Shown piece by piece: positions 26,672 to 45,429 of a stretch of DNA of 64,000 nt. The stretch's first letter is position 1; each line of letters starts with the position of its first letter. The DNA is taken from positions 2,356,001 to 2,420,000 of the forward strand of contig NZ_CP132343.1 of assembly GCF_040529065.1 (NCBI RefSeq), given 5' to 3'. This DNA comes from Xanthomonas sacchari. Lineage in GTDB: Bacteria > Pseudomonadota > Gammaproteobacteria > Xanthomonadales > Xanthomonadaceae. The notes beneath the pieces are model-generated. The model did no database searches and was not told the origin of the DNA. It was given only the letters and a program-made list of their open reading frames with translations. Made by a program: the position numbers and the translations under genes.

Positions 26672-27284
26672 ACATTCCCACGATGCGGACGCCGCCGACG
26701 CGGCGCTGGAATGGGGCAAGGGCGATGGCCTGCTGCCGGTGGTGGTGCAGGATGCCGCCACGCTGCGCGTGCTGATGCTGGGCTACATGAACCAGGAGGC
26801 GCTGACGGCCACGCGCCGCAGCGGCCAGGTCACCTTCTACAGCCGCAGCAAGCAGCGGCTGTGGACCAAGGGCGAAAGCTCCGGCAACGTGCTGGACGTC
26901 GTGGCGATCGACACCGATTGCGATCGCGACACCTTGCTGGTGCTGGCGCATCCGCGCGGGCCGACCTGTCACCTCGGCCGCGACAGCTGCTTCCCGCAGG
27001 CACCGGGCCAGTTCCTGGGCGCGCTCGACCGCCTGGTCGCGCAGCGCGAGCGCGAGCGGCCGGCCGGCAGCTACACCACGCAGTTGTTCGAGAAAGGCAC
27101 GCGGCGCATCGCGCAGAAGGTGGGCGAGGAGGGCGTGGAGACCGCGCTGGCCGGCGTCGCCCAGGGCGACGACGAACTGCTCGGCGAATCCGCCGATCTG
27201 CTCTACCACCTGACCGTGCTGCTGCGCGCGCGCGGCCTGGGCTTGGCCGATGCGGTGGCGGTGCTGGAAGCGCGGCACTGGTAG
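26661..27284 (+). CDS. hisI: Phosphoribosyl-AMP cyclohydrolase / phosphoribosyl-ATP pyrophosphatase
   Basis: A 207-residue fusion (HisIE). The cyclohydrolase part has [30 protein letters not shown], the D-x-D-x-D metal site (AIDTDCDRD) and the zinc cysteines in [12 protein letters not shown]. The pyrophosphatase half has [25 protein letters not shown] and [12 protein letters not shown]. It closes the his operon. The ATG at 26661 is set by family length and lies inside the hisF end. Confidence 0.94.
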
Positions 27285-27362
27285 TCCAGGTGACGCCGCG
27301 TCAGGCGTCGCCCATCTTGTCTACATCGCAGCCGCCCTGCCGGTCTGATGTCGCTTGACAGC

Positions 27363-27457
27363 CCGCATGCCATTGATAAGCATGCGGACACGTGCGAATG
27401 CGCTGCCAAGATGGCAGCACCAACGCGGATGTTCAGGCCGCGAACTGCGTTCGCGGC
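27363..27457. promoter_or_regulatory. Three successive perfect hairpins after the his operon
   Basis: In the 274-nt gap: CCGCATGC/GCATGCGG with a 9-nt loop (27363-27387); GCTGCCA/TGGCAGC with a 3-nt loop (27402-27418); GCCGCGAA/TTCGCGGC with a 5-nt loop (27437-27457). None is followed by a T tract. They may act in 3'-end formation or stability of the his mRNA, or mark the left edge of the accessory island. Confidence 0.55.
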
Positions 27458-27558
27458 GATCAACTGGCGTGCAATGGAGATGCAATGGGAAGTCGGCTGG
27501 ATGCATCACGCCTCGCTGCGGGTAGTGCGCTCCCTGTGCGGTCCGCCGGTGTCGGCCT

Positions 27559-28233
27559 ATGAGCCCCGACGCCCAGGATCTCGGGGGCGCCCTGCAGCTG
27601 GCGCGCGTCATCAGGCGACTCAAGGCGCAGGTGCAGCCCAGCGAGTTGGGCGCCGAGACGGTCGAACACCTTGTGCGCCGCTACGCGCGCGTGCGCCCGC
27701 CGGCGTTGACGCTGGACATGCAGAGCCACTACGACCCAAACTGGCCGCGCGCATTCGAAGAGGAAAAGGATCGGCTGCTGGACGCGTTCGCCGGAGAGGA
27801 TGTGCTGGGTGTCGAGCATATCGGTAGCACGGCGATCCCGGACCTGCCGAGCAAGAACATCCTGGACATCGCGATGGCACGCGGCGCATCGCTGTCGGCC
27901 GAACGGCAGTCCGGCATATTGTCGGAACTCGGCTATCAGGCATATGGCGAAAGCCCGATCGATGCAGGATTCTCCTGGCATTGGCGCATCGGGCAGGCCG
28001 GCGATCGCGCGTTCGTGGTCCATACCTGCGCCGCCGACAATCCCCGATTCACCGACATCCGCAATTTCCGCGATTTCCTGCGTGCGTTTCCGCAAGAGCG
28101 GCAGCGCTATCTGGAGCTCAAGCAGGCGTTGGCGGCGGTGCCCGGCCAGACCTGGCTGGACTACAGCGTGTTCAAGAAAGTCCTCGTGGTGCGGATTACC
28201 GCACGCGCCAATGCGTGGCGCCAGGGGAGCTGA
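27559..28233 (+). CDS. GrpB-family (UPF0157) nucleotidyltransferase-fold protein
   Basis: A 224-residue protein. From residue 58 the GrpB pattern appears: YDPNWPRAFEEEK, then GVEHIGSTAIPDLPSKNILDI (residues 84-104), HWRIG and FRDFLRAFPQ. The GST..PDL..K..LDI block is the remnant nucleotidyltransferase active site of this family, which has no settled function (members include CoaE-fused domains). The first 55 residues, a helical stretch, are an extension beyond most members. It opens the accessory island; 60 nt separate it from the permease gene. Confidence 0.78.
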   Translation: MSPDAQDLGGALQLARVIRRLKAQVQPSELGAETVEHLVRRYARVRPPALTLDMQSHYDPNWPRAFEEEKDRLLDAFAGEDVLGVEHIGSTAIPDLPSKNILDIAMARGASLSAERQSGILSELGYQAYGESPIDAGFSWHWRIGQAGDRAFVVHTCAADNPRFTDIRNFRDFLRAFPQERQRYLELKQALAAVPGQTWLDYSVFKKVLVVRITARANAWRQGS

Positions 28234-28293
28234 CATGCCGGCATCCCTCCTGGAGGAATCCCGGCGTCATCTGCAGATGCGATCCGGTGCGGC

Positions 28294-29070
28294 ATGAAGG
28301 CCTCGCACAGCCTGATCGCGCTGCAGGCCCTGTTTCGACGCGAAATCGCGCACATGTTCCGGATGTGGGTGCAGACGCTGGTTCCGCCGCTGACGATGAT
28401 GGTGCTGTACGTCCTGATCTTCGGCAAGCTGATCGGAACCCGGATCGGAACCGTCGACGGCGTCAGCTACCTGCACTTCATCGCGCCGGGCCTGGTGATG
28501 ATGTGCGTCATCACCAACAGCTACGCCAATGCGTCGAACGCGTTCTATTTCATCCGCTTCAATCGCGCGATCGAGGAACTGCTGGTGTCGCCCATGCACG
28601 AATGGACCATCCTGCTGGGCTATGTGGCCGCGGCGGTGGTGCGCGGCCTGCTCGTCGGGGGGCTGGTGTTGTTGATCGCATTGCCGATGACCGCACTGCA
28701 GGTCGCGCATCCGTTCATCGTCTTTCTTTCGGCGCTTCTGGCGGCCACGATCTTTTCGCTGGTCGGTGTCATCGTCGCGATCTACGCGAAGAATTTCTAC
28801 GACACGGCGCATGTGTCCACCTATGTGCTGACCCCGCTGTCCTATCTCGGTGGTGTGTTCTACCCGATCGGCCTGCTGGGCGAGCCCTGGCAGAGCATTG
28901 CGCGCATCAATCCATTGATGCACATGATCAGCGCGTTCCGCTATGGCGTGCTGGGCGCGGACACCGCAGCGAGCGTCGGCACCTCGCTTGTGGTCATGCT
29001 GATGTTCATTATAGGCTTGGGCGCTTTCGCGCTGACGTTGCTCGGCAGAGGTGTCGGCGTCAGATCCTGA
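28294..29070 (+). CDS. ABC-2 type transporter permease
   Basis: A 258-residue integral membrane protein with six predicted helices and the ABC-2 signature: an N-terminal ALFRREIAHMFRMWVQTLVPPL elbow, FIAPGLVMMCVITNSYANASNAFYF, SPMHEWTILLGYV and near the end TPLSYLGGVFYPIGLL. It resembles the YadH class that pairs with a separate ATPase (YadG). No ATP-binding gene is visible anywhere in the window, so the ATPase must be elsewhere. Its place in the island suggests product export. Confidence 0.85.
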   Translation: MKASHSLIALQALFRREIAHMFRMWVQTLVPPLTMMVLYVLIFGKLIGTRIGTVDGVSYLHFIAPGLVMMCVITNSYANASNAFYFIRFNRAIEELLVSPMHEWTILLGYVAAAVVRGLLVGGLVLLIALPMTALQVAHPFIVFLSALLAATIFSLVGVIVAIYAKNFYDTAHVSTYVLTPLSYLGGVFYPIGLLGEPWQSIARINPLMHMISAFRYGVLGADTAASVGTSLVVMLMFIIGLGAFALTLLGRGVGVRS

Positions 29071-29072
29071 GC

Positions 29073-29945
29073 ATGGCGGTGAAGCATGCGCGGGACGCAG
29101 CGGTGACGATCGGTCGTCAGGACCAGGGAGCTCGCGACATGGACATCGGCGATGCCGCGCTTGCGCCAGGTCTGGTGGAAGCAGCACTCGATCAACCGGT
29201 GTATCGGGACACCCGATACGACGTGCGCGTGCGCGACCTTGTCGCCGTGTTGGGCCGTGACGGCAAGCGCGTTTTCGTTGTCGGAGGTGCGCCACGCGAC
29301 TGGCTGGCGGGCCTGCCTGGCAAGGACATCGATCTGGCGCTGGAGTGCGGCGTGGACGAGGCGCTGCGCCTGCTGCGCGACGCCTATCCCGATGCGGAGG
29401 CTGCGGTGCGCATGCGCAACGACCGCTTCGGCGTGGTGCGCTGGGGCGACCCCGCGTCAGGCGCGGTCGATCTCAACATCCTGCGCAGTTGGCGCGATGT
29501 CCAGGGCAGTGACATGTGGACGACGACGTTCGTCGCGCGTTCGGATCTGGTCGAAGACGCGCTGATGCGCGATTTTTCGGTCAATGCGTTCTATTACGAT
29601 TGCGCAAACCAGGTGCTGCGCGATCCTCTGCGGTGCGGCATTCAGGATCTGCGCGAAAAATCCCTGCGGATCATCGCCCATCCGCACGTGCTGGCGGCGA
29701 GCTACCGGATGACCTTCCGCATTGCCCAGTTCCTCAGTCGCGGCTATTCGCCGACGTCGAACGTGCTCGAGTATCTGGAAAGCCATGCCGATCGCGACAT
29801 CCAGGGCATGGGCGCGCGCATTCGTCGATGGACATCGGAGCAGCTGCGCGTGGAGCGCGATCAGCAGGCAGCGTTCAAGGGCGTCCTCTATGCGCACGCC
29901 CGCCAGGCCGCCTCCATCGAGACCTTGGACGCCTTCTTCGGCTGA
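29073..29945 (+). CDS. Short CCA-adding/poly(A) polymerase-like nucleotidyltransferase
   Basis: A 290-residue protein with the head domain of class II tRNA nucleotidyltransferases: VFVVGGAPRDWLAGLPGKDIDLAL (residues 67-90, metal-binding D85 and D87), the third carboxylate in GAVDLNIL (D123), RDFSVNAFYYD (156-166) and DPLRCGIQDLREKSLRII. The usual EDPxRxxRAxRFA motif is degenerate (AASYRMTFRIAQFL), and the RNA-binding body and tail (another 120 residues or more) are missing. It may therefore transfer a nucleotide to something other than tRNA. It starts 2 nt after the permease stop. Confidence 0.78.
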   Translation: MAVKHARDAAVTIGRQDQGARDMDIGDAALAPGLVEAALDQPVYRDTRYDVRVRDLVAVLGRDGKRVFVVGGAPRDWLAGLPGKDIDLALECGVDEALRLLRDAYPDAEAAVRMRNDRFGVVRWGDPASGAVDLNILRSWRDVQGSDMWTTTFVARSDLVEDALMRDFSVNAFYYDCANQVLRDPLRCGIQDLREKSLRIIAHPHVLAASYRMTFRIAQFLSRGYSPTSNVLEYLESHADRDIQGMGARIRRWTSEQLRVERDQQAAFKGVLYAHARQAASIETLDAFFG

Positions 29946-29956
29946 GGGAGACCTGC

Positions 29957-31237
29957 ATGCACGCATCCATCGCCACGATGTCGGCACCGTTCCGGCGCGT
30001 CTTCCAAGCCGGGATGCGCGACGGCGACGGCCACCTGCTCGGTGGCACCGAAGTGCTGCATCTGGTGCCGCATCGAGGAAAGCTGTTTTCGCTGTTGTCC
30101 TATTCCCACAACCGTTACCTGCCAGGCGACCCTCCGGTCGGCGCCCAGGTCGCCATGCTGGATCGGGCCGACGGCGAATGGCGCCAGGTGCACGCCTACG
30201 ACCGTGACTACTGGCGGGCAACGCTCAGGTCGGTGGCGTTTACCCAGGACGAACGCGGGCGACCGCTCGATGTGCCCGTCTCGCTGCTGCTCGCCGGGCC
30301 GTCCAACAACAAGGGCGCCGTGTATGTCGATTGCCTCGACGACGACATCGGGACGTGGGCGCGCACGCACCTGGGGAGCGGGGCGGGCCTGACCGCCGCG
30401 CGCAGCTTCTTCGTCCACCGCGACACGGTGACCGGGCAGGAGCGCGTCTTCGTCGGCACGTTGCCGCTCGGCATCTTCAGCGGCAGCTACGATCCGGACG
30501 CGCCAGGCAAGATCCGCTGGGACCGACAGGCCGAGCTAAGCGGCTACCGGCGCCGTCCCATGGCCTTCACCGAATGCGATGGGGTCCTGTACTGCAGCAT
30601 CAGGCCGGACATCTATCGGCGCATCGACGGCCCTGTGCCGCGATGGGAGAGCGTGCATACGATCGCCGAACCGCTGATCTTTCCGAGTTGCGGATATCGC
30701 GGGCTCATGGGCGTGCCGCATCCCTCGGGATCGGGGCAGGTGTTGCTGGCGGCGTTGGAAGGCGACCGTTGCCGCATCGTCCGGATCGATCCGCAGGACG
30801 ACTTCAGGGAGACCCTCGAACTGGATGTCCTCGAGTTTCTGGGCGCGCATTGGGGAAAGCGCCCGGCCTTTGGCGTGGTCGCCTACGACGACTTCACGCC
30901 GGTGCGCGATCCCGCCAGCGCACAGACGTTGCTGCTCGCAGGCGTTGGCGCCAGCGACAGTGCCCGCGACGACATGCATCCGCCCGACGGCTGGGCCCGC
31001 GACGCCTGGTATCTGATCCGCGATCCGGACGGGCAGCGGCATACGCTCGCTCGGATCGAATCTGCGGATCTGGCGCCGTCCACGCCGCTTTTTGCCGCAC
31101 GCAGCTTCGCGGCCTCGCCATTCGAACCAGGAATGCTGTACGTGGGCGGCTACGATCCCAACGCGCAGCCGTGCCGAGACACCGCATGGGTATTTTCCGC
31201 ATCCGTCGAGACGGTGCTCGCACCGCGAACGCGATGA
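29957..31237 (+). CDS. Unrecognised 426-residue protein, possible beta-propeller
   Basis: I do not recognise a family. The protein has no signal peptide or membrane helix. Many short beta-strand-like stretches recur with aromatic and small residues (LFSLLSYSHNRYLPG, GVLYCSIRPDIYRRIDG, LMGVPHPSGSGQVLLAAL, GMLYVGGYDPNAQ), spaced as in beta-propellers, and a LLLAG motif appears twice. A GAGGGAG ribosome site lies 8 nt before the ATG. It follows the nucleotidyltransferase by 11 nt, so it is probably the last gene of the first island operon. Confidence 0.6.
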   Translation: MHASIATMSAPFRRVFQAGMRDGDGHLLGGTEVLHLVPHRGKLFSLLSYSHNRYLPGDPPVGAQVAMLDRADGEWRQVHAYDRDYWRATLRSVAFTQDERGRPLDVPVSLLLAGPSNNKGAVYVDCLDDDIGTWARTHLGSGAGLTAARSFFVHRDTVTGQERVFVGTLPLGIFSGSYDPDAPGKIRWDRQAELSGYRRRPMAFTECDGVLYCSIRPDIYRRIDGPVPRWESVHTIAEPLIFPSCGYRGLMGVPHPSGSGQVLLAALEGDRCRIVRIDPQDDFRETLELDVLEFLGAHWGKRPAFGVVAYDDFTPVRDPASAQTLLLAGVGASDSARDDMHPPDGWARDAWYLIRDPDGQRHTLARIESADLAPSTPLFAARSFAASPFEPGMLYVGGYDPNAQPCRDTAWVFSASVETVLAPRTR

Positions 31238-31310
31238 GATCGAGTGCGCTGCCGCGCCCGCATCGACGCCGTCACTTGTCTACATTTTCGAGTCGCGGAT
31301 GAAAGGTGCG

Positions 31311-31390
31311 TTGAATTTCGCAAATTCTTCTGAATATACTCGGGCCACAGCCCCTACAGCATAAGGAAATGCACAATTATTGGTTGTGCA
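31311..31390 (+). promoter_or_regulatory. Sigma-70 promoter and 5' hairpin of the biosynthetic operon
   Basis: In an unusually AT-rich stretch for this window, TTGAAT (31311-31316) and TATACT (31335-31340) are separated by 18 nt. Transcription would start near 31347. Within the resulting 90-nt leader lies a perfect inverted repeat TGCACAA-N7-TTGTGCA (31370-31390), which could be an operator or an mRNA stem. Confidence 0.65.
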
Positions 31391-31437
31391 TCTGACAGCC
31401 GTATGTCTGCGGCCGGCAGCATGTTTCAAGGACGGAT

Positions 31438-31986
31438 ATGACCTCGCACTTGCTGGCCTCCTGGACCGCCTTTCCGGACCCGCGCCCTGCGGACGCGTAT
31501 GCCGATGGATGGTGTGCCGACGCCGTCCCCTCGCGACGGCTCAACGATTATCTGGCCTTGCGCGGCTCCACCACCTTCTTTCTGGAGGCGCTCGCCGGAT
31601 CGCCCGTCGAGGTCCATGTCCTCGATCAGCATATCGAAGCGCGGGCGAATGAAGGCGAGGTCCTGTGCCGCCGTTCCCGCCTTTACGTGCGCGATCCACG
31701 CAACATCCTCCTGGTCGCCGAATCGTCGATCCGCCTGTCCTGCGTCGATGCGCAGCAGCGGCGGAAGCTGCTCGACGGCAGCGTAGGAATCGGCAAGCTG
31801 TTCGATCCGCACGATCGTGGTCTCCTCGAAAAGACCGACCTGGAGACGCTTGCCGTGCCTGCACCTCGCAGTCTCCGCACCGACTCGACCTGGGCGCTCT
31901 CGCGGCGCTACGCGATGAAACTCAACGGCCTCGACTGCGTCGAGGTCAGCGAAATCCTCAACAACGAATCGCTGGAGCGCGCATGA
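31438..31986 (+). CDS. Chorismate-lyase-like protein (UbiC/Rv2949c fold)
   Basis: A 182-residue protein that lines up by eye with chorismate pyruvate-lyases, especially the DUF98/Rv2949c type: CRRSRLYVRDPRNILLVAES (77-96) against the family arginine strand, LLDGSVGIGKLF (111-122) against the G..PLG..L loop, and TWALSRRYAMKLNG then CVEVSEIL, where E172 sits at the place of UbiC catalytic Glu155. The family splits chorismate into pyruvate and 4-hydroxybenzoate. Overall identity is low, so a related arene product or a binding-only role cannot be excluded. The stop overlaps the ligase start (ATGA). Confidence 0.68.
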   Translation: MTSHLLASWTAFPDPRPADAYADGWCADAVPSRRLNDYLALRGSTTFFLEALAGSPVEVHVLDQHIEARANEGEVLCRRSRLYVRDPRNILLVAESSIRLSCVDAQQRRKLLDGSVGIGKLFDPHDRGLLEKTDLETLAVPAPRSLRTDSTWALSRRYAMKLNGLDCVEVSEILNNESLERA

Positions 31987-33335
31987 TGACGCCGGTCGAG
32001 TGCGCCGACGCGCCCGCGTGCGACTGGCGCGGCGCGCTGGCCGCCAGCGGCAGCGTGGTGCACCTGAATGGAGCGCGGGCGACGCTGCAGGACCTGCTGC
32101 ACAGCGGGCGCGAGCGCTGGAAGGCCAAGCGCGGGTGCACGCGGGCGGCGATGCTGGGCGTCGACGATCTGCAGATGCTGTCGCACTTGCTGGCCGCCAT
32201 TGTCGATGGGCATTCGCTGCTGCTGTGTGCAGGCAACGCGGCGCCACCGCCGCTGTGCGATGTGCATGTCGGTGCGGCGGTCGAAGGTGGCGCTGCGCCG
32301 TCGCCGCTGCAGATCCTCCCGCCACCGGCAGGGCATGCGCAGTGGCCCGCGGGCTTGGCGGTGCTGTCCTCGGGCACGGTGGGGGCGCCCAAGGTGATCT
32401 GGCATGCATACGACGATCTGCTGGCGACCAGCGCCATGGTGCTGCGCCGGTTGCAACTCGGCGCCGACGATCGGGTGTTGATCACCGTTCCCCTGCATCA
32501 CATGTATGGTCTCGGCGCGGCGCTGCTGCCGGCATTGCTGGCCGGTGCGCAGATCCATCTGCTGCCCAAGGCCAATCTGTTGGGCTTCAACGATGCGCTG
32601 CGCGCCGCAAGGCCGACCTGGGTCTATTCCACCCCGCATCTGTTGCGAATGCTGCTGCAGCGCAAGAACGCCCCGGTCGTCGGCTGTCGCGGCCTGGTGC
32701 TTGCCGGCGACGCGACGCCGCCGGTACTGCACGCGCAGGCGCAGCAGGTCTTCAATCGCGTTTTCGACCTCTACGGAAGTTCCGAACTGGGTGTGGTCGC
32801 GATTTCCGCGCCCAATGCGCCCGGGGCGTTGCGTCCGCTCGAGGGCGTGTCCGCATGCATCGCAGACACCAGCGCCGGACAGGGTAATCTGCTGGTGACC
32901 CATCCGCACGCCGCCACGCATCTGGCCCAGCAGGACGAACTGACGGCGTTTCCCGCCGTCTGGGACACGCGCGACATCGCGGCCTTCGATGACAGTGGTG
33001 GCTTCTGCATCCGCGGCCGCGCCGATCTCAGCCTGAACCGCGCGGGCAAGCTGCTGATCCTGGCCGATCTGGAGAGCACCATGATGGCGTGGCCCGACGT
33101 CGCGCAGGCCGTGGCGATCGTGCTCGACGAAGACACCACGGCGGGCAAGGCGATCGCGGCCGTGGTCAAGCCTGCCAACCCCACGCTGACCGTCGACGTG
33201 CTCAAGCAGCATGCGTCGATCACGCTGCCGGCCTTCGCCAGGCCGGATCACTACACGCTCGTTTCGGATCTGCCTTGTCTGGGCAGCGGAAAGCCCGACC
33301 GGAAGACCATCATCAAGGACTACTGCCATGGATAA
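31983..33335 (+). CDS. AMP-forming acyl/aryl ligase (ANL superfamily)
   Basis: A 450-residue adenylating enzyme, short for the family. Motifs: LSSGTVGAPK (128-137, phosphate loop), PLHHMYGLG (170-178), YGSSELG (254-260), WDTRDIAAFDDSG (327-339), GRADL (345-349) and the C-terminal catalytic lysine in LGSGKPDRKTI (K437). With a carrier protein next and a chorismate-lyase-like gene before it, it most likely activates a hydroxybenzoate-type acid and loads it on the ACP. Substrate is inference. It overlaps the ACP gene by 8 nt. Confidence 0.85.
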   Translation: MMTPVECADAPACDWRGALAASGSVVHLNGARATLQDLLHSGRERWKAKRGCTRAAMLGVDDLQMLSHLLAAIVDGHSLLLCAGNAAPPPLCDVHVGAAVEGGAAPSPLQILPPPAGHAQWPAGLAVLSSGTVGAPKVIWHAYDDLLATSAMVLRRLQLGADDRVLITVPLHHMYGLGAALLPALLAGAQIHLLPKANLLGFNDALRAARPTWVYSTPHLLRMLLQRKNAPVVGCRGLVLAGDATPPVLHAQAQQVFNRVFDLYGSSELGVVAISAPNAPGALRPLEGVSACIADTSAGQGNLLVTHPHAATHLAQQDELTAFPAVWDTRDIAAFDDSGGFCIRGRADLSLNRAGKLLILADLESTMMAWPDVAQAVAIVLDEDTTAGKAIAAVVKPANPTLTVDVLKQHASITLPAFARPDHYTLVSDLPCLGSGKPDRKTIIKDYCHG

Positions 33336-33609
33336 GCCCCAGATCGTCGACACCTTGAAGCGGCTGATCGCCGAGGACCTGGATCTCAATGTGCGCTACG
33401 AGCAGATCCCGGATGGGGCGTCGTTCCTGGAAGACGGGCTTGCGCTGGATTCGATCAGCATGGCGGAGTTCATCAACCATCTGGAGCGCCGCTTCCCGAT
33501 CCGCATCCTGGACGAAGACCTAGAGTCGGATACGTTCAGGTCGCTGGACAGCGTGGCCTCGCTCGTGCTCATGCGCCTGCCGGCGCGCACGGCCGAGGCG
33601 GCGCAATGA
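33328..33609 (+). CDS. Acyl carrier protein
   Basis: A 93-residue carrier protein with an acidic helical core and the phosphopantetheine site LALDSISMAEFINHLE, attachment serine 42. The LDS(I/L) motif and RFPIRI...SDTFRSLDSVASLV continuation are typical of stand-alone ACPs in secondary pathways. Start ATG at 33328 lies within the ligase gene, and the stop overlaps the radical SAM start, so ligase, ACP and radical SAM enzyme are made together. Confidence 0.88.
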   Translation: MDKPQIVDTLKRLIAEDLDLNVRYEQIPDGASFLEDGLALDSISMAEFINHLERRFPIRILDEDLESDTFRSLDSVASLVLMRLPARTAEAAQ

Positions 33610-34952
33610 CCGAGCTCACGATCGCGCTGGTCGACGATGCGCGTGGTCCGCCCCTGCCGCCGCCGGACTATCGCAACGAACTGCCCAACCGCGACGGCTT
33701 CGTGGTGGCGTGGCCGCCTCAGCGTTACTGGAAGTCGGCCGGCGACGCCGATCTCCTGGCCGAACAGCCGCTGCATCTGTACTTCCATATCCCGTTCTGC
33801 CTGCAGCGCTGTCGCTACTGCTTCTTCAAGATCGAGATCCTGTCCGACTCCTCGCATGCGGTCCGCGAGCGCTATGTCGACGCGCTGTGCCGCGAGATCG
33901 AACTGGTCGCCGATGCGCACCGGTTGCGCGGACGCACGGTGAAGTCGATCTACTTCGGCGGCGGCACGCCGAGCGTGATCCAGCCCGAGCAGCTGCGCCG
34001 CATCAAGCGCAAGATCGAGGAGTGCTTCGTGCTCGATGCGCCCGAGTTCGTCTTCGAGATCGAGCCGATCACGTTGAACAACCGCATGATCGATGGGTTG
34101 GCGGACCTGGGCGTCAACCGGATCAGCTTCGGCATCCAGTCCTTCGACGACCGCGTGGTCGCCCTGACCGGTCGCCACGATACCGACGAGAAGAACTCGC
34201 GGGCGATCGAGCGAGCGCTGAAGACCGGTGCCGTGGTCAATGTGGATCTGCTGTCCGGGCTCGAAGGCGAGGTGATGGGCAGCTGGCAGCATTCGATCAA
34301 CCGTGCCATCTCCCTCGGCGTGCATGCGGTCACCGTCTACAAGATGGAGTTGTACTCCAACGCGCACTACATGCACGACGTCCGCCAGGGCACGCTCACG
34401 CTGCCAGGCCCGGACCAGGAAATAGCGTTTGCGCGCTGGGGACTTTCGCGGCTGCGCGAGGCGGGCTATCTGCCGTCCACCTATTTCACCTTCACCCGCG
34501 AAGGGAAGTATCCGCAACGGCACATCATCAGCCGCTGGCGCGGCGAAGACTTGTATGGCTTCGGCGCATCGGCGTTCGGCACCGTGGGCGGACGCAGCCG
34601 GCAGAACGTCACCGAGATCGATGCCTATCTGGACCGCGTCGAGCGCGGTGCGATCCCGACGCAGCGGGTGCTGGAGATCAGCAGCGCCGACCAAATGCTG
34701 CGCGACCTGGTGATGGGGCTGAAGACGACCGCGATCGATCTCGGCGCCTACCGCGACAGGCACGGCGTGCAGCTGGACACGACGCTCGCCGACGACCTTG
34801 CGCACCTGCAGCAGCAGGGCCTGGTCACGCTCGAGGACGAGCGCCTGCGCCTGACCGACGAAGGCATCCTCTACGGCGACTACTGCGGCCGTTATCTGGG
34901 CGCCGGACTGCGCCGCAAGCTCACCGGAAAGGCCGGGCCGCTGAGAGCCTGA
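33606..34952 (+). CDS. HemN/HemW-like radical SAM enzyme
   Basis: A 448-residue radical SAM protein. LYFHIPFCLQRCRYCFF holds the cluster cysteines C65, C69 and C72 (CxxxCxxC); IYFGGGTPSVI, FEIEPITLNN, NRISFGIQSFDD and the late GEDLYGFGASAFGTVGGRSRQN are HemN-family features. The C-terminal winged-helix-like HemN_C region (LVMGLKTTAIDL to LTDEGILYGD) is present. The family includes oxidative decarboxylases, class C methyltransferases, cyclopropanases and haem-opening enzymes. In HemN the third cysteine is followed by G and C (YCGC); here it is FF. In this operon a tailoring step is more likely than haem synthesis. Confidence 0.85.
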   Translation: MTELTIALVDDARGPPLPPPDYRNELPNRDGFVVAWPPQRYWKSAGDADLLAEQPLHLYFHIPFCLQRCRYCFFKIEILSDSSHAVRERYVDALCREIELVADAHRLRGRTVKSIYFGGGTPSVIQPEQLRRIKRKIEECFVLDAPEFVFEIEPITLNNRMIDGLADLGVNRISFGIQSFDDRVVALTGRHDTDEKNSRAIERALKTGAVVNVDLLSGLEGEVMGSWQHSINRAISLGVHAVTVYKMELYSNAHYMHDVRQGTLTLPGPDQEIAFARWGLSRLREAGYLPSTYFTFTREGKYPQRHIISRWRGEDLYGFGASAFGTVGGRSRQNVTEIDAYLDRVERGAIPTQRVLEISSADQMLRDLVMGLKTTAIDLGAYRDRHGVQLDTTLADDLAHLQQQGLVTLEDERLRLTDEGILYGDYCGRYLGAGLRRKLTGKAGPLRA

Positions 34953-34957
34953 CCACG

Positions 34958-35713
34958 ATGCTGATCACGCCGGATTTCGTTTTCATCCATATGCCCAAGA
35001 CGGGCGGAACATTCATCACCGAGATGCTGCGACGTGCGTATGGCCCGCGGGCGGTCGAAACCGGGCGCAAGCACGGTACCTGCGACGAGATCCCGGACGC
35101 GGACCGGGGCAAGCCGATCCTCTCGGTCATGCGCTCGCCGTTCGAGCGCTATGTCTCGCAGTACCACTATGGCTGGTGGAAGACGCATCCGCAGGAATAC
35201 TGCGATCCTGCGCGGATCCAGCAGGAGTTCCCGGCGTATCCCCAGGTCGGTTTCGGGGAGTTCGTCGCGATCGCCAATCGTTTCTTCGTCAATGTGCATC
35301 GCGGCATGCCCAGCGGCTACGACACGCCGAAGCTGCCGGCCGAACGTGCGATCGGATGGCATACCGAGCAGTTCATCCGCTTCTTCTGCCGGGACCCGAA
35401 GCGCGTATTCGCCGGCATCGTCGACCAGGACCTGGACCGGGGCCATCTGCAGGCGCATGAGTATCTGGTGGAGTTCCTGCGCACCGAGACGCTCAACGAC
35501 GACCTCGCCGATTACCTCGAACGGCTGGGTGCGGATGCGGCGCTGTCCAGGTGCGTCCGACAGCACGACCGGGTCCTGCCGGATCAGGCCCACGAAGCGC
35601 GGGCGCGCCCGCACGCACGCGATTACTTCGACGATCGCTTGCGCGATTTCGTCGCGCGCAAGGAGGCCTTCCTGTTCAATCGCTTTCCGGAATACCGGGC
35701 AGGTGTGCAATGA
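34958..35713 (+). CDS. Sulfotransferase (Sulfotransfer_2-like)
   Basis: A 251-residue protein with the PAPS 5'-phosphosulfate loop FVFIHMPKTGGTFI (residues 7-20) and the 3'-phosphate-binding ILSVMRSPFERYVSQYH (R59, S67). HMPKTGGT with an RSPFERYVS partner is the pattern of carbohydrate/cytosolic sulfotransferase relatives. It should move sulfate from PAPS to a hydroxyl group. Start at 34958 is 5 nt after the radical SAM stop; the end overlaps the reductase by 4 nt. No PAPS synthesis genes are in the window. Confidence 0.82.
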   Translation: MLITPDFVFIHMPKTGGTFITEMLRRAYGPRAVETGRKHGTCDEIPDADRGKPILSVMRSPFERYVSQYHYGWWKTHPQEYCDPARIQQEFPAYPQVGFGEFVAIANRFFVNVHRGMPSGYDTPKLPAERAIGWHTEQFIRFFCRDPKRVFAGIVDQDLDRGHLQAHEYLVEFLRTETLNDDLADYLERLGADAALSRCVRQHDRVLPDQAHEARARPHARDYFDDRLRDFVARKEAFLFNRFPEYRAGVQ

Positions 35714-36414
35714 CGCAGACGCGCAGCGGCGATCGCGTCGCCCTCATCAGTGGCGGCAATCGCGGGATCGGGCTGGCGACGTGCGAAGGCCTCGCCGAGC
35801 GTGGCATGCAGGTGTACATGGGGTGCCGGAATCTGGCCGATGGCATGGCCGTGGTCGCGCGCCGCCAGCTGAGCGGGGTGACGCCGATCCAGCTGGACGT
35901 CTGCTCCGAAGCGTCGATGGCCGCGGCGGTCAACGTCATCGCACAAGCCCACGGGCATGTCGACGTGCTCGTGAACAATGCCGGCGTCTCCGTGGGCGTG
36001 CGCGATACGCCCAGTACGGAAGCCGAGGCGCAGGCGCGGGCGACGTTCGACGTCAACTTCTTCGGCCCGTGGCGGCTGATCCAGTTGGTCCTGCCCCTGA
36101 TGCAGTTGCGGCCGCAGGCGCAGATCATCAATGTCTCCAGCGGGCACGGCAGTTCGACCAAGATCGAAGGCAACAACCTGGCGTACCGCAGCTCGAAGTC
36201 GGCATTGAATGTGCTGACCCAGGCGCTGGCCATGGAGCTCGCCGACCGCGGCATCCGCGTCAATTGCATGACCCCGGGCTGGGTCAGGACCAAGCTCGGC
36301 GGCATCGCCGCGCCGCGCTCGCCGGAGCAGGGGGCCGAGACCATCCTGTGGCTGGCCGATGGCGGCGGCGAGACCGGCAAGTTCTACAAGGACAAGGCGG
36401 TTTTCCCGTGGTGA
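35710..36414 (+). CDS. Short-chain dehydrogenase/reductase
   Basis: A 234-residue classical SDR: cofactor loop SGGNRGIG (14-21), NNAG (89-92), catalytic serine in NVSSGHG (143-144) and AYRSSK (Y159, K163). CRN after strand two suggests NADP preference. The C-terminus LWLADGGGETGKFYKDKAVFPW matches the carbonyl-reductase-like subgroup (members act on ketones and aldehydes). Within this operon it could reduce a carbonyl on the ACP-bound or released intermediate. Overlaps both sulfotransferase genes. Confidence 0.87.
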   Translation: MTQTRSGDRVALISGGNRGIGLATCEGLAERGMQVYMGCRNLADGMAVVARRQLSGVTPIQLDVCSEASMAAAVNVIAQAHGHVDVLVNNAGVSVGVRDTPSTEAEAQARATFDVNFFGPWRLIQLVLPLMQLRPQAQIINVSSGHGSSTKIEGNNLAYRSSKSALNVLTQALAMELADRGIRVNCMTPGWVRTKLGGIAAPRSPEQGAETILWLADGGGETGKFYKDKAVFPW

Positions 36415-37256
36415 AGGCGCCGAACCTGTTCGTCATCGGCGCGCCGAGATGCGGGACCACCTCGTTGTTCGCCGCGCTCAAGCAGCATCCGGACGTCTAC
36501 GCGACCGTGCTGAAGGAGCCGCACTTCTACGCCGCGGACCTGCCCGCACAGCCGCACACCGTCTCCGATCCCGCGGACTACCAGCGCCTGTTCGCTGCTG
36601 CGGGCGACCAGCGCTATCGCGCCGAAGCGTCGGTCTGGTACTTCTACAGCCAGGAGGCGCCGGCACGGATCGCCAGGGCACATCCGGACGCGCGGATCGT
36701 GCTGCTGCTGCGAAGCCCGGCCGACATGCTGCTCAGCCTGTATGCGCTGTATCTGCGGACGGGCAACGAAGCCGACTCGAATCCCGAGGCGGCCGTGTTC
36801 CGCACGAGCGAGGCACGTTTCGCGAACACGTATTTTCCGTTCGGGCTGCACTACCTCAACTTGCTGGACGTCACCGGGCCACTGTCGCGTTGGCGCAGCT
36901 TCTTTCCCAGGGAGCGGTTGCGGGTGCTGACCTACGAGGACATGTACGCGTCGCCGCAGGCGGGGTTTCGCGATCTTTGCGGCTGGCTGGGCATCGACCA
37001 GGAAGCGCCGGTGAGCTTCGATGCCCGGCAGGCACGCGAGGCGGTGCGTCGCATGGCAACGAAGCAACTGCGCGATCTGCCCGATCATCTCCGCCGGAAG
37101 CTGAACCCCGCTGCCTCCCGATTGCACGCCGGCAAGGCGGACGTTGCGATCCCCGCTGCGCTGCGCACACGTCTGCGCCACCATGCGCAGGAACGCAACG
37201 CCGGCTTCGCGCTGGCAGCGGACAGGCCATGGCCTGACGCGTGGCGAGCTGCCTGA
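36411..37256 (+). CDS. Sulfotransferase (Sulfotransfer_1/3-like)
   Basis: A 281-residue protein with LFVIGAPRCGTTSLFAALKQHPDV (PAPS loop near residues 8-30), KEPHFYAADL, and RIVLLLRSPADMLLSLYALYL (3'-phosphate site). This is the bacterial heparan-sulfate/ST-type family and differs clearly from the first sulfotransferase, so the two probably modify different positions or intermediates. GTG at 36411 forms a GTGA overlap with the reductase stop; a second GTG lies 3 nt upstream. It ends the operon. Confidence 0.83.
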   Translation: MKAPNLFVIGAPRCGTTSLFAALKQHPDVYATVLKEPHFYAADLPAQPHTVSDPADYQRLFAAAGDQRYRAEASVWYFYSQEAPARIARAHPDARIVLLLRSPADMLLSLYALYLRTGNEADSNPEAAVFRTSEARFANTYFPFGLHYLNLLDVTGPLSRWRSFFPRERLRVLTYEDMYASPQAGFRDLCGWLGIDQEAPVSFDARQAREAVRRMATKQLRDLPDHLRRKLNPAASRLHAGKADVAIPAALRTRLRHHAQERNAGFALAADRPWPDAWRAA

Positions 37257-37391
37257 CAGGGGCGCCGGGAACATGATCGCCCGCGTGGCGGGTCAGGGCA
37301 GGGGAGCCTGTCTTCGGGTGGACGCCTGAGCGGACCTCGGGCGCCCAGCCGCCTCGAGCGCCGGGCTGCGGCTGCGTTGATCGCCTGCGTC

Positions 37392-37408
37392 CGCCCAACC
37401 GTTGGGCG
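37392..37408 (+). terminator. Hairpin in the gap after the sulfotransferase operon
   Basis: Perfect 7-bp stem CGCCCAA/TTGGGCG with a 3-nt loop in the 268-nt gap 37257-37524. There is no T run, so termination is only a possibility. The rest of the gap shows no gene. Confidence 0.35.
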
Positions 37409-37524
37409 TGGCTGTGCAGGACGTCGCCGGCCCGCTGGCTGTGCGCTGGACCGTCCGGTCGCGGTCACCGTCGTTCCGTGATCAATGGCTACAATGGCGG
37501 TTTCGCTTGCTCCCGGGATTGACC

Positions 37525-39111
37525 ATGTTGCTGCGTGCCGTCGTGCTCACCTGCCTGTTGACCGCCGCGCTTCCCGTGCTGGCGCAGCCGGCGACGATCA
37601 GCGGCAGCGTCTACCAGGAGCGCGATGGCCATGCGGGACGTGGCGATGGCGAGCCCGGCATCGCCGGCGTGCAGGTCTCCGATGGCGTGCACATCGTGCG
37701 CACCGACGCGCAGGGGCGCTACTCCCTGCAAGTGGAGCCGGGACGCACGGTCTTCGTGATCAAGCCCGATGGCTACACCTTCGCCAGCGCAGGCAACGGT
37801 CTGCCTGCCTATTGGCGCCACTACGCGCCGGCCGGCTCGCCCAAGCTCAAGTACCCGGGGATCGCGCCGACGACCGGCGCCACCGAGCACTGGGATTTCG
37901 CCCTGCGCGCGCAGCCCAAGGCCGACAGCACCGAGGTGCTGGTCTTCGCCGACAGTCAGACCGCCTCGATGACCGACGTCGGCTACTACGCCCGCGCGAT
38001 CGTCGCCCCGCTGGTCGGCAAGACCCAGGCGCGCCTGGGCACCACGCTGGGCGACCTGGTCAGCGACGACTTGTCGCTGTTTCCCGCGCTGAACGCCGAA
38101 ACCGTCAAGCTGGGCGTGCCGTGGTTCCACGTGCCCGGCAACCACGACCTGAATTTCGACGCGGCCGACGACCTGGGGTCGTTGGCTAGCTGGCGCGCGA
38201 TCTACGGCCCGGACACCTACGCGGTGGAGGACGGGGGCGCCAGCTTCGTGTTCCTCGACGACGTGATCTATCAGCCGCAGCGCCAGCCCGATTACATCGG
38301 CGGCTTGCGCGAGGATCAGTTCGCGTTCCTGCAGACCTACCTGGCGAGCGTTCCCAAGGATCGGCTGCTGGTGCTGGGGATGCATATCCACCTGTTCGAC
38401 GCGGTCCCCGGCAAGGAGTCCTTCCGCCATGCCGACCGTGCGCGGCTGTTCGCGCTGCTGAAGGACTTCCCGCACGTGCTGGTGCTCACCGCGCACAGCC
38501 ACACCCAGCGGCACATGTACTACACCGCCGCCGACGGCTGGCAGGGCGCGAGCCCGCTGCACGAGTACAACGTCGGCGCCGCTTGCGGCGCCTATTGGTC
38601 CGGCGTCAAGGGCGCCGATGGCGTGCCGGTGACGACGATGTCCGACGGCACGCCCAATGGCTATGCCGTGCTGACCGTGAAGCGCGGCGGCGACTATGCG
38701 CTCGCCTATCACGCCGCGCGCGCCGCCGGCGATCCGCAGTTGCAGTTGCATGCGCCCAAGGTGCTGCGCCGCGGTGCCTACCCGGCCTGGGGGGTGTACG
38801 CGAACGTGTTTATGGGCGAAGACGACACACGTGTGGAGTACCGTCTCGATGGCGGCCCCTGGAAGCCGATGCGGCACGTCCGGCAGCCGGATCCGGACCT
38901 GCTCGCGGAGAACGCGCGCGACGATGCCGCCGACGCGTTGCGTGGTTACGACCGTTCGCCGGAAGCCACGCCGTCGGAACACCTGTGGCGCGGCGTCCTG
39001 CCCACCGACCTGAGCGTCGGCGCACACCGGATCGAGGTTCGCGCCTTCGATCGCTGGCGCGGCGAGCAGCGCGCCAGCACCAGCTATCGGTTGCAGGACG
39101 CGTCGCCCTGA
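37525..39111 (+). CDS. Exported calcineurin-like phosphoesterase with MetallophosN/C domains
   Basis: A 528-residue secreted protein. Residues 1-21 are a signal peptide. An N-terminal beta-sandwich (ISGSVYQERDG to TDAQGRYSLQVEPG) resembles the carboxypeptidase-regulatory-like MetallophosN domain. The phosphoesterase core follows: VFADSQ, TTLGDLVSD, HVPGNHDLNF, MHIHLF and LTAHSHTQRHM, giving the metal ligands. The last 150 residues are a MetallophosC-like sandwich. It probably cleaves phosphodiesters in the periplasm or outside. Substrate unknown. It marks the right edge of the island. Confidence 0.82.
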   Translation: MLLRAVVLTCLLTAALPVLAQPATISGSVYQERDGHAGRGDGEPGIAGVQVSDGVHIVRTDAQGRYSLQVEPGRTVFVIKPDGYTFASAGNGLPAYWRHYAPAGSPKLKYPGIAPTTGATEHWDFALRAQPKADSTEVLVFADSQTASMTDVGYYARAIVAPLVGKTQARLGTTLGDLVSDDLSLFPALNAETVKLGVPWFHVPGNHDLNFDAADDLGSLASWRAIYGPDTYAVEDGGASFVFLDDVIYQPQRQPDYIGGLREDQFAFLQTYLASVPKDRLLVLGMHIHLFDAVPGKESFRHADRARLFALLKDFPHVLVLTAHSHTQRHMYYTAADGWQGASPLHEYNVGAACGAYWSGVKGADGVPVTTMSDGTPNGYAVLTVKRGGDYALAYHAARAAGDPQLQLHAPKVLRRGAYPAWGVYANVFMGEDDTRVEYRLDGGPWKPMRHVRQPDPDLLAENARDDAADALRGYDRSPEATPSEHLWRGVLPTDLSVGAHRIEVRAFDRWRGEQRASTSYRLQDASP

Positions 39112-39168
39112 ACGCGCCGCGGGTGCGACGCTGGTGTCCCGGCGACGCCAGTTCAGTCGCGATCTAGG

Positions 39169-39363
39169 TTCTTTCAACCGCTGTCCTGGGCTGGGACGGC
39201 GCGCCGGACCGGTCAAACGCCAGCCGATTCGCCAATGCAAGCGCCGATCGGCGCATCGGCTTCATCGCCAACGACAGCAGCCGGTTCTACTTCGTCCAGC
39301 GCCCGCGTGTGCTGGGCCCGATCGCTGTGCCAACTTTCATTTGCAGGTTACGCGAAGAACATT
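39169..39363 (+). pseudogene. Possible decayed coding fragment
   Basis: After a TAG at 39166-39168, a frame without start codon reads AVLGWDGAPDRSNASRFANA and RRIGFIANDSSRFYFVQRP up to a TGA near 39379. The composition is protein-like and unlike the other frames, as if it were the tail of a broken gene. I cannot name a parent family, and chance is possible. Confidence 0.2.
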
Positions 39364-39678
39364 CCTTGCATTGATTGAATAGCTGCATTGCTCCACACGG
39401 TTCGCCAGCTTTACATCCTGCGTTTGCTTGTCCGCGTACTTGCAGCGCATGGTGACGAAGCGGCCCTCGTCGTAGATGTAGCCGAGAGCCCAATGGCCGT
39501 CTCGTTCCTTTGCCACGTCGGGTTCAAGCGTTGCGAGATCCTGTGGTTCTCCATCGAATGCATCGATGGAGCGAAGTGGCTGGTTCTGTCGAATGGGGCA
39601 GACGGAAGGCGCGGCGAGCGCACTCCTCCAGCCAAATAGGCAAAGGAGGAGCGCGGCAAGTTGCTTGCTCGATGACAT
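39337..39678 (-). CDS. Small exported protein, possibly STY0301-like
   Basis: A 113-residue protein with a signal peptide (residues 1-24, ending SALAAP) and a mature part with four cysteines (VCPIRQN, RCKYADK, EQCSYS, VTCK) that could form two disulfides. The layout of a short exported protein starting VCP and ending in a cysteine recalls the STY0301 family of unknown function. I chose ATG 39678; another ATG lies five codons upstream. Local GC is lower than in the neighbours, and it lies next to a possible gene remnant, so recent acquisition is conceivable. Confidence 0.6.
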   Translation of the reverse strand: MSSSKQLAALLLCLFGWRSALAAPSVCPIRQNQPLRSIDAFDGEPQDLATLEPDVAKERDGHWALGYIYDEGRFVTMRCKYADKQTQDVKLANRVEQCSYSINARNVLRVTCK

Positions 39679-39826
39679 AGAGGTTGCTTCCATCTGCGCC
39701 GCGTCGGCCGGGCGTTCGCCTGTGTAGCCTTGATCGAGGAAGTCGGCTTCACCGCCTGCCGAGTCTGGAGTGGACCGCCGCTGCGGCGCGGCCCGGTGCA
39801 CTGCTGGTGTGGCATCGGCATGAAAC

Positions 39827-39848
39827 AAAAAAACCTCCATGAAGGAGG
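39827..39848 (-). terminator. Rho-independent terminator of the mtn/C13 peptidase operon
   Basis: Read on the minus strand: CCTCC/GGAGG stem with a 5-nt loop followed by seven T. It lies 250 nt past the stop of the C13 peptidase gene. I see no gene in the stretch 39849-40103 between them. Confidence 0.75.
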
Positions 39849-40103
39849 CCGATGAAACGCGAGGATCCTGGCTGGCGAGCGAAGGCTGGCGGGCGGGCGG
39901 ATCGGTGCGCAGCTGGCTGGCGAAAGGCTGGCGGGCTTGCTGCGGGGCGCAGTGTAGCGGCCGCGCGCGATCATCGGTCGAACGCGAATCACTCTCATCT
40001 ATGAGATCGCTGCGGACTCCTGCTCCAGGCTCCATGCGGGCACCGAGCGCTGGAGCCGTCACCGTCGGGGCAATACGTGCGCTGCTCGACGGAGCAGGAC
40101 GAC

Positions 40104-41216
40104 TCACTGCGCGGGAGCGGCAGTCGATGGTCGCGCCTGTTTTGCAGGCGTCGGGGGGGCAGTGGCTTGCGTGGTCCCGGGCGCGTGGTCCGGTTCGGTA
40201 TCTGCATCTGCATCGGCCGCAGTCGCTGCGTCGTCCGCATCGGGTTCCGGATACGGATAGGGCGGTGCGGCGGCGTTCGGCAACTGCGCGCGCCAGTGCT
40301 GCAGCCAGCTGCCGATGCGCGCACCCACGTACAGCTGCGGATACGACGGCGCTTCGCCTTCGGCCTGTTCGCGTGCGCTGATCTCGGCGCTGGCCAGGCT
40401 GTAGCTTTCGACCATGTCGGTGGTGCGCGCCAGTGCGTCGATCAGCCAGGCACGGCCGAAGTAGGTGGCGCTGGCGGTGTTGCCGCAGCCGAACGAGGGC
40501 CGGTCGCGGCGTGCGGCGGTGATCACCAGAGTGTCGGCGGTCTTCAGCGCCGGCACGAAGCCGCCGGAGTAGCAGGCCGAGATCACGATGATGCGGTTGC
40601 GGATGCCCGCGTCGTCGAGCAGGCGGCGCAGTTCCTGCGGGGTGATGGTGTCGTACTCGGCATCCTCGCCGGGGCCGAACTGCAGGTACAGCTCGTGCTT
40701 GTCGGTGCCGTGGCTGGTCAGGAACAGCAGCAGCGCATCCTCGCGCGGATCCATCAGCTTGCCGACGCGGTCCAGCGTATCGGCCAGGTTGTCGTAGGAC
40801 GCCTGCGGCGCGTAGGCGTGCGCGCCCAGGTTGTCGCCTTGGTTGATCAGGGTGGCGATGCGGCCAGCGGCGCCGAAGCGCTGCGTGAACATCTGCCGCA
40901 GGTACAGCACTTCGTTGCGGAACACGTCCTCGCTGGCGTCGCCGGCGAATCCGACCACGTACAGGTCGGGAATGCCTGGGCGCTGCGCCTGCAGCGACCC
41001 CAGCGCCTGGCGCAGTTGCGCCTGGTCGACCGGATCCGGTGCCGCCTCGTCCTGTGCGGCGTCGGCCGCGCCGGCCGGCATGGCGCCGGCGTCGGAATGG
41101 CAGGCGGGTAGGGCCAGCGCCAGCAGCGCTACCGGCAGCAAGCGGCGTCGCAGCAAGGCGAGCGGGCGCTGCCACGCCGCCAGGACGGCCACCAAGGCGG
41201 CGACAGGCCGGCGCAT
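40104..41216 (-). CDS. Exported C13-family (legumain-like) cysteine peptidase
   Basis: A 370-residue protein. The N-terminus has a hydrophobic segment followed by LALPACHS, a likely lipobox (Cys about 39). The peptidase core shows VVGFAGDASEDVFRNEV, the catalytic histidine in LLLFLTSHGTDKHELYL and the catalytic cysteine in IVISACYSGGFV, the His-Gly / Ala-Cys layout of clan CD family C13. ARRDRPSFGCG continues the family pattern. The last 65 residues are a disordered Pro/Ala/Asp tail. Bacterial C13 enzymes are little studied. The gene starts 8 nt after mtnC, so it is in the methionine-salvage operon. Confidence 0.83.
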   Translation of the reverse strand: MRRPVAALVAVLAAWQRPLALLRRRLLPVALLALALPACHSDAGAMPAGAADAAQDEAAPDPVDQAQLRQALGSLQAQRPGIPDLYVVGFAGDASEDVFRNEVLYLRQMFTQRFGAAGRIATLINQGDNLGAHAYAPQASYDNLADTLDRVGKLMDPREDALLLFLTSHGTDKHELYLQFGPGEDAEYDTITPQELRRLLDDAGIRNRIIVISACYSGGFVPALKTADTLVITAARRDRPSFGCGNTASATYFGRAWLIDALARTTDMVESYSLASAEISAREQAEGEAPSYPQLYVGARIGSWLQHWRAQLPNAAAPPYPYPEPDADDAATAADADADTEPDHAPGTTQATAPPTPAKQARPSTAAPAQ

Positions 41217-43229: not shown

Positions 43230-43300
43230 GCGCGTAGTGTAGGGCTTGGGGGTTGGATTGGGATGACAGGTGGCTGGATCCAAGCGCATCTGCTCATGCC

Positions 43301-43903
43301 GTACCCTCACGCCAACCCCTCTCCCGGAGGGAGAGGGGCTACGGCTTTTCCTTCTCCCCTTGGGAGAAGGTGCCCCGCAGGGGCGGATGAGGGTCTGGGC
43401 GAAGCCACGTATGCCAGATGGGTGCAGCGCTTCGCGCTCCGTATCCTCACCCCAACCCCTCTCCCGGAGGGAGAGGGGCTACGGCTTTTCCTTCTCCCCT
43501 TGGGAGAAGGTGCCCCGCAGGGGCGGATGAGGGTCTGGGCGAAGCCACGTATGCCAGATGGGTGCAGCGCTTCGCGCTCCGTATCCTCACCCCAACCCCT
43601 CTCCCGGAGGGAGAGGGGCTACGGCTTTTCCTTCTCCCCTTGGGAGAAGGTGCCCCGCAGGGGCGGATGAGGGTACGGGCGAAGCCACGTGTCGCCAGCT
43701 GGGTGCAGCGCTTCGCGCGCCGGACCCTCACCCCAACCCCTCTCCCGGAGGGAGAGGGGCTACGGCTTTTCCTTCTCCCCTTGGGAGAAGGTGCCCCGCA
43801 GGGGCGGATGAGGGTACGGGCGAAGCCACGTGTCGCCAGCTGGGTGCAGCACTTCGCGCGCCGGACCCTCACCCCAACCCCTCTCCCGGAGGGAGAGGGG
43901 CTT
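43301..43903. repeat. 140-bp tandem repeat, four full copies and a partial fifth
   Basis: Units begin at 43301, 43441, 43581, 43722 and 43863 (periods 140, 140, 141, 141). Each has two strong inverted repeats, CCCTCTCCCGGAGGGAGAGGG and CTTCTCCC/GGGAGAAG with a short loop, followed by GTGCCCCGCAGGGGCGG, then CGAAGCCACGT and a GGTGCAGC.CTTCGCGC stretch. Units 2 and 3 are nearly identical while units 4 and 5 share variants (GTCGCCAGCT, CGCGCC). It fills the gap between mtnB and the permease stop. Open frames through it are by-products of the 140/141-nt period. Confidence 0.9.
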
Positions 43904-43910
43904 ATGGCGC

Positions 43911-45344: not shown

Positions 45345-45392
45345 GGAGCGGTTCCAGCCGGGCGCGGCGCGCGAGGAAGAGGGGACGAACGC

Positions 45393-45418
45393 GAAGACCG
45401 GCGCGGACGCCGGTCTTC
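45393..45418 (-). terminator. Strong hairpin after the second permease
   Basis: Perfect 11-bp stem GAAGACCGGCG/CGCCGGTCTTC with a 4-nt loop, 12 nt after the stop of the 45430-46902 gene on the minus strand. No long T run, but stability and position suggest transcription termination or mRNA protection between the two permease genes. Confidence 0.55.
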
Positions 45419-45429
45419 GGGGAAAGGGA

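Follow-up and report, generated by a model that had tools for sequence, protein, structure and literature searches.

The 64,000-nucleotide stretch of the Xanthomonas sacchari genome analysed here (the window; contig NZ_CP132343.1, positions 2,356,001 to 2,420,000) carries an acquired, transferable island of eleven genes at 27279..37443, the last seven of which form an operon. The island appears to encode a natural-product pathway not yet characterised, with a core similar to a known logic, newly combined: a protein with a predicted chorismate-lyase fold (CL), an AMP-forming acyl/aryl ligase (ANL), a carrier protein (ACP) and a HemN-like radical S-adenosylmethionine (SAM) enzyme (rSAM), followed by a probable sulfotransferase (ST1), a carbonyl-reductase-like short-chain dehydrogenase (SDR) and a second sulfotransferase (ST2). 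These short names are used throughout for the operon's seven products. A first-pass annotation of the same DNA had proposed that a carrier-tethered hydroxybenzoyl unit is altered by radical chemistry and reduction and sulfated at two sites, an interpretation which, as a whole, is partly supported.

The operon and its conservation

The coordinates of the open reading frames (ORFs) bear out the seven collinear genes of the first pass, all on the + strand: CL at 31438..31986, ANL at 31983..33335, ACP at 33328..33609, rSAM at 33606..34952, ST1 at 34958..35713, SDR at 35710..36414 and ST2 at 36411..37256. Their junctions are, in order, overlaps of 4, 8 and 4 nt, a gap of 5 nt and overlaps of 4 and 4 nt, and both the single operon and the carrier-tethered logic are supported. 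The family assignments also stand. ANL (PF00501, 90 bits, and PF13193), ACP (PF00550, with Ser42 placed by alignment in a DSIS motif), rSAM (PF04055, 77 bits, and PF06969 or HemN_C, 52.2 bits, with a CX3CX2C motif), SDR (PF00106, 154.5 bits) and ST2 pass the Pfam cut-offs; CL was placed nearest to DUF98 (Rv2949c-like) by profile search and model fold, and ST1 lies below its cut-off.

The conserved unit is larger than the seven genes first described. The same eleven genes are found in the same order in 7/7 carriers: genes for GrpB, an ABC-2 permease, a poly(A)-polymerase-head nucleotidyltransferase and a 426-amino-acid (aa) protein, at 27559-31237, and then CL, ANL, ACP, rSAM, ST1, SDR and ST2. 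The operon proteins are collinear in all seven genomes, at about 50-90% aa identity, rather than scattered without linkage, and the genes are under selection, with a ratio of non-synonymous to synonymous substitution (dN/dS) of 0.13-0.28 for all eleven (window compared with one carrier, G004). This conservation of the gene set exceeds chance.

CL was found in 4/149 relatives, ST1 in 3/20 genus genomes, and the rSAM profile recovered 7/395 family genomes at an E-value of 1e-80. A pattern scan of a named collection (stated to cover 84,980 species) gave four loci, from Xanthomonas bonasiae FX4, a Lysobacterales metagenome-assembled genome, Lysobacter enzymogenes ATCC 29487 and Lysobacter sp. yr284, identical with G016, G078, G1074 and G1083; because it matches exact peptide words, the scan overlooks more divergent members, and G000, G004 and G1099 were also not listed. 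Among 72,556 plasmid records no plasmid-borne copy was found: 64 matched the G192 rSAM (see below) and 46 that of the window, all below 60% identity. The best 30 matches of each were 26-31% identical and were HemN, HemW, HutW, STM4012, other radical SAM, coproporphyrinogen-oxidase-family or unannotated proteins.

The sigma-70 promoter proposed in the first pass is present as stated. A sigma-70-like TTGAAT-N18-TATACT is present by pattern match at 31311..31340 (+), TTGAAT-18-TATAGT occurs at the matching place in two Lysobacter loci, and 6/6 aligned loci retain TATA(C/G)T. On the other side, a site of this type is no commoner than in shuffled sequence (1 in 11 kb, compared with a mean of 1.3 in shuffles), and the -35 element is removed by deletion in the other two Xanthomonas carriers.

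Insertion site and flanks

In 15/20 genus genomes a metallophosphatase (MPE) gene comes immediately after hisIE, and in 3/20 the island separates the two; the remaining two have no MPE gene within the stretch compared. Comparison with two of the empty sites places the break points at 27278 and 37444 of the window, and with a third at 27278 and 37529. At 65.7%, the G+C content of the island is below the 70.2% of the remaining window, and none of 108 sliding windows of island size is lower, the single equal one lying over the island itself. In X. bonasiae and G004 (L005, L006) a stretch of about 270-350 bp, which begins close to the hisIE end and reaches into the first part of the MPE gene, flanks the island on either side, its length depending on the empty site used. 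Such a duplication would be expected if a circle had integrated by a single crossover.

Up to 27278 the window is 94-98% identical to a near relative, G008, in which the island has no counterpart. From 37529 to about 40,400, the metallophosphatase region, identity is only 77-86%, and beyond this it is mostly 94-98%, with dips. The stretch 37529-40400 has the appearance of a recombination tract adjoining the island. Read from the sequence comparison, the simplest account is that the island and the MPE region were imported together by homologous recombination from another Xanthomonas.

Between the Lysobacter loci L010 and L011 the match spans 10.0 kb and does not extend beyond it. The right flank of a third, L067, has 3.2 kb in common with L011 and 1.1 kb with L010, and the left flanks of the compared loci are dissimilar. 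Ten ORFs in the Lysobacter flanks were scanned, of which four have fimbrial, Lnb_N or StcE-like domains and six match nothing, and the block therefore seems to end at ST2. Thanks to the empty sites, strains with the island and their close relatives without it can serve directly as pairs for comparative metabolomics.

The radical SAM enzyme, ligase and carrier

The HemN-like assignment of rSAM was retained and sharpened: it has HemN-type domains, falls in a clade of its own and carries NocN-type two-SAM residues. Its nearest solved structures are HemN and NocN. In a tree of 18 rows, some with long branches, rSAM and its G192 counterpart form a clade (support 99/99) apart from the HemN, HemW, HutW and STM4012 references. 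The residues by which NocN holds two SAM molecules are given as Tyr34, Tyr96, Arg153, Asp196 and Ser225 in the sections of that paper drawn on here, with Tyr96 at the methionine end of the second SAM (PMC13266988). Counted along the structure-match alignment, 4/5 are identical in rSAM, and Ser225 is replaced by Thr243. Tyr96 corresponds to Tyr116 of rSAM, where His stands in the three sequences of the HemN clade compared; this residue fits a NosN/NocN-like role of the second SAM better than a HemN-like one. From its sequence, rSAM is a probable class C enzyme of the two-SAM type. Several points weigh against this assignment. Other HemN-like proteins also retain most of these SAM contacts, which therefore do not single out methylases, HutW and STM4012 likewise have Tyr at the place of Tyr116, and a key residue of NocN, Tyr276, lies outside the aligned stretch.

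The core of the island resembles NosI-NosJ-NosN of the nosiheptide/nocathiacin pathways in its adenylating ligase, its small carrier, its HemN-family, probably class C radical SAM enzyme for what would be an aromatic acid, and the retained two-SAM contacts (from the parts of PMC5585349 and PMC13266988 used here). NosI loads 3-methylindolic acid onto the carrier NosJ, where it is methylated by NosN (PMC5585349); the NocN paper takes side-ring closure as the act of NosN (PMC13266988), and this disagreement between the two accounts over its physiological act weakens the parallel. The island differs in having no recognised precursor peptide, in having a chorismate-lyase-fold protein as the presumed source of its acid, and in the addition of SDR and two sulfotransferases. 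A NosK-type alpha/beta hydrolase for release is not among the eleven island proteins (Pfam), and hydrolase-fold genes are found near the G192 quartet. The HemN-like enzymes C10P/C10Q and that of coelulatin likewise carry out one-carbon chemistry in natural product pathways, on other scaffolds, and the sections of those papers drawn on here mention no chorismate-lyase/ligase/ACP trio (PMC6050322, PMC9714029).

The chorismate-lyase-fold protein

On the evidence of its model, CL has the predicted chorismate-lyase fold, and by profile it matches the DUF98 structure 2nwi (E = 1.4e-7). The active site of UbiC contains an Arg and a Glu. Glu172 of CL, conserved near the C-terminus, aligns with a Glu of 2nwi, and Arg78 is invariant in seven sequences. 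The likeness to UbiC and to the DUF98/Rv2949c-like lyases consists of the model fold and the C-terminal Glu matching that of 2nwi. CL differs from them in falling below the Pfam cut-off and in its surroundings, being followed by ligase and carrier genes where E. coli has the ubiquinone genes ubiC-ubiA; the neighbours of DUF98/Rv2949c-like lyases are phenolic glycolipid genes. Other results count against a lyase. The window protein has no Pfam hit at an E-value of 0.01, and the gathering score of PF01947 (22 bits) is missed both by the L007 orthologue (16.7 bits) and in the genome itself (11.8 bits). The model fold is common to GntR-type effector-binding domains (Z = 13.3, compared with 12.8 for UbiC), and at the level of residues the alignment with UbiC is weak (hhalign probability 14%).

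The reductase and sulfotransferases

The structure nearest to SDR is 1n5d, and its Ser143-Tyr159-Lys163 is kept. ST1 scores 17.4 bits against PF03567 (19.7 bits in L007), short of the cut-off of 22, which tells against its assignment; among four sequences PKTGGTF is invariant and RSPF-RYVSQY nearly so, both of which we take to be motifs for 3'-phosphoadenosine 5'-phosphosulfate (PAPS). ST2 passes the PF13469 cut-off of 27 with 60.2 bits and matches structure 3rnl (E = 1.7e-28). The genome contains an adenosine-5'-phosphosulfate kinase gene and genes of the phosphopantetheinyl transferase family. The presence of SDR and two sulfotransferases would suit an aromatic product that is reduced and sulfated.

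A separable quartet

At an E-value of 1e-60, the genome itself and G192 were the only ones among 369 class genomes recovered with the rSAM profile. G192 belongs to another family, and its CL, ANL, ACP and rSAM genes (L018:60-14331) stand in the same order as in the window, in a stretch of 43% G+C. Identities to the window are 39% for rSAM, 32% for ANL and 39% for ACP; the two CL proteins are related by profile (probability 97%, E = 1.1e-10), although BLASTP found no match between them, a point against the pathway proposed below. Around the quartet are the end of a non-ribosomal peptide synthetase (NRPS) gene, about 5 kb upstream, alpha/beta hydrolases, a carbamoyltransferase, a PEP-utiliser mobile domain and a flippase-like protein. 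The best sulfotransferase match in the 20 kb searched has an E-value of 0.72, so that the aryl-carrier-radical core is separable from the reduction and sulfation genes, as seen in this one genome. Of the two genomes searched in the order of G192, one has the rSAM and the other lacks it. A 350-aa protein without a Pfam match was also noted beside the quartet.

Among 398 phylum genomes at the same threshold, the genome itself scored 896 bits and four others 206-209 bits. One of the four (G309) was considered as a distant quartet and rejected, since its protein groups with HemN and neither ANL nor ACP is matched within the 20 kb searched.

Proposed pathway and alternatives

On a narrow balance of probability we favour the view that the island is a transferable eleven-gene biosynthetic unit working as follows. 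CL would split pyruvate from chorismate, leaving a hydroxybenzoate (most likely the 4-hydroxy isomer), which ANL would adenylate and load onto Ser42 of phosphopantetheinylated ACP. By analogy with NosI-NosJ-NosN, the tethered acid would gain a carbon, rSAM using two SAM, as NosN/NocN do, to place a one-carbon unit on an sp2 carbon of the ring. SDR would then reduce a carbonyl, and ST1 and ST2 would sulfate hydroxyls with PAPS; the chemistry of every step, the order of the rSAM, SDR and sulfation steps, and release from ACP are presumed. The ABC-2 permease might export the product with an ATPase encoded elsewhere, and the two nucleotidyltransferase-type proteins might cap or inactivate an intermediate, a cap for export or self-protection being a guess. 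A bolder generalisation, which is possible and which we hold with some reserve, is that CL-ANL-ACP-rSAM is a new, portable module for radical one-carbon chemistry on a chorismate-derived hydroxybenzoyl group attached to a free-standing carrier, supplying in Xanthomonas and Lysobacter a new class of bis-sulfated, possibly nucleotidylated aromatics and passing from one bacterium to another on a 10-kb island. If so, it would be a further source of aromatic building blocks, with radical SAM chemistry on carrier-bound hydroxybenzoate, and a minimal four-gene module that recurs against two quite different genomic backgrounds. Doubly sulfated aromatics would be of interest in plant-associated bacteria, for which sulfated signals are already known. 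No product is described for the gene set among the open-access matches listed, judged by titles and the starts of abstracts, with subscription journals mostly outside.

The first pass had predicted a small product from the lack of a ketosynthase or NRPS; the eleven proteins indeed contain neither family (Pfam), and the prediction may fail in G192, with its NRPS gene about 5 kb from the quartet. It is rather unlikely, though a serious alternative, that the quartet makes a modified aryl acyl unit for a larger scaffold (peptide, sugar or lipid) built elsewhere, the sulfotransferases acting on the scaffold and the island being a tailoring or starter cassette. The nearby NRPS gene, hydrolases, carbamoyltransferase and flippase-like protein of G192 would suit such a role, as would the distant likeness of ST2 to heparan sulfate sulfotransferases and the lack of a recognised thioesterase or other releasing enzyme among the eleven proteins (Pfam), which also weighs against the scheme we favour. 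Opposed to it are the absence of NRPS, polyketide synthase and glycosyltransferase families from the island, the unlike left flanks in Lysobacter, and right flanks which, though partly shared, offer only the domains listed above. The identity of the acid loaded by ANL raises a separate doubt. The PDB entries nearest to ANL are oxalate-CoA ligase, then Cfl and 4-chlorobenzoyl-CoA ligase, and ACP and ANL have sub-cut-off matches to AmcB and AmcH of cispentacin. Together with the GntR-type kinship of the CL fold, this would suit a binding or sensor protein in place of a lyase and a different acid (fatty, dicarboxylic or plant-derived aryl) on the carrier; we consider this unlikely, the conserved Glu172 and the 2nwi match pointing instead to a lyase.

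Two further readings are already disfavoured. That rSAM is an ordinary HemN, HemW or HutW paralogue in an incidental neighbourhood might be suggested by its best named NCBIfam matches, HutW, HemW, STM4012 and HemN; it is nevertheless under all three equivalog cut-offs (HutW 199.6/400, HemW 180.8/205.4 and HemN 161.8/324.95 bits), branches with G192 away from these families and lies in the same cluster in 7/7 carriers, which makes this very improbable. Xanthomonadin/aryl polyene clusters, for which a ketosynthase is expected, also place hydroxybenzoate on a carrier protein, and the host genus makes xanthomonadin in this way. The island has no ketosynthase, dehydratase or acyltransferase family among its eleven proteins, with radical SAM and sulfotransferase genes instead, and a pigment pathway is scarcely credible.

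The four upstream genes

All four are on the + strand, and their roles in the pathway are guesses, which is a further weakness of the scheme. The GrpB/UPF0157 protein (27559..28233; PF04229, 106 bits; in 7/7 carriers) we take to have a nucleotidyltransferase-like fold. The ABC-2 transporter permease (28294..29070; PF01061) scores 309.7 bits against NF011648, with a cut-off of 225, and no ATPase partner is encoded among the eleven genes. The third product (29139..29945) is a stand-alone poly(A) polymerase/CCA head-domain nucleotidyltransferase (PF01743, 57 bits; PcnB 3aql, E = 4.5e-10) in which the alignment shows KDIDLA, presumably the metal-site motif. It was found in 4/219 class genomes at an E-value of 1e-15, namely its own and three at 58-62 bits in 442-455-aa frames, and neither it nor ST1 had a match in the plasmid records. 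The 426-aa protein (29957..31237) has no Pfam family above cut-off and is mostly beta in a low-confidence model (pLDDT 48). Among the 398 phylum genomes it occurs only in its own, and its one plasmid match is a Hymenobacter protein sorted by the type IX secretion system (L046:5926-7467), encoded near efflux genes and 32% identical over 91% of the island protein. A role in anti-phage defence was considered and rejected, as 0/10 island proteins (ACP left out) match PADLOC at an E-value of 0.001.

Other features of the window

The only RNA feature is one tRNA. By eye, the translation of 40104-41216 on the - strand suggests a caspase-like or C13-like protein, which lies partly within a stretch (from 40000) with no more than 77% identity to G008. 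GC-rich repeats of about 140 bp, matched in G008 too, are found at 43299-43905, and two adjoining permease-like genes (by eye), with about 71% DNA identity, at 43929-46780.

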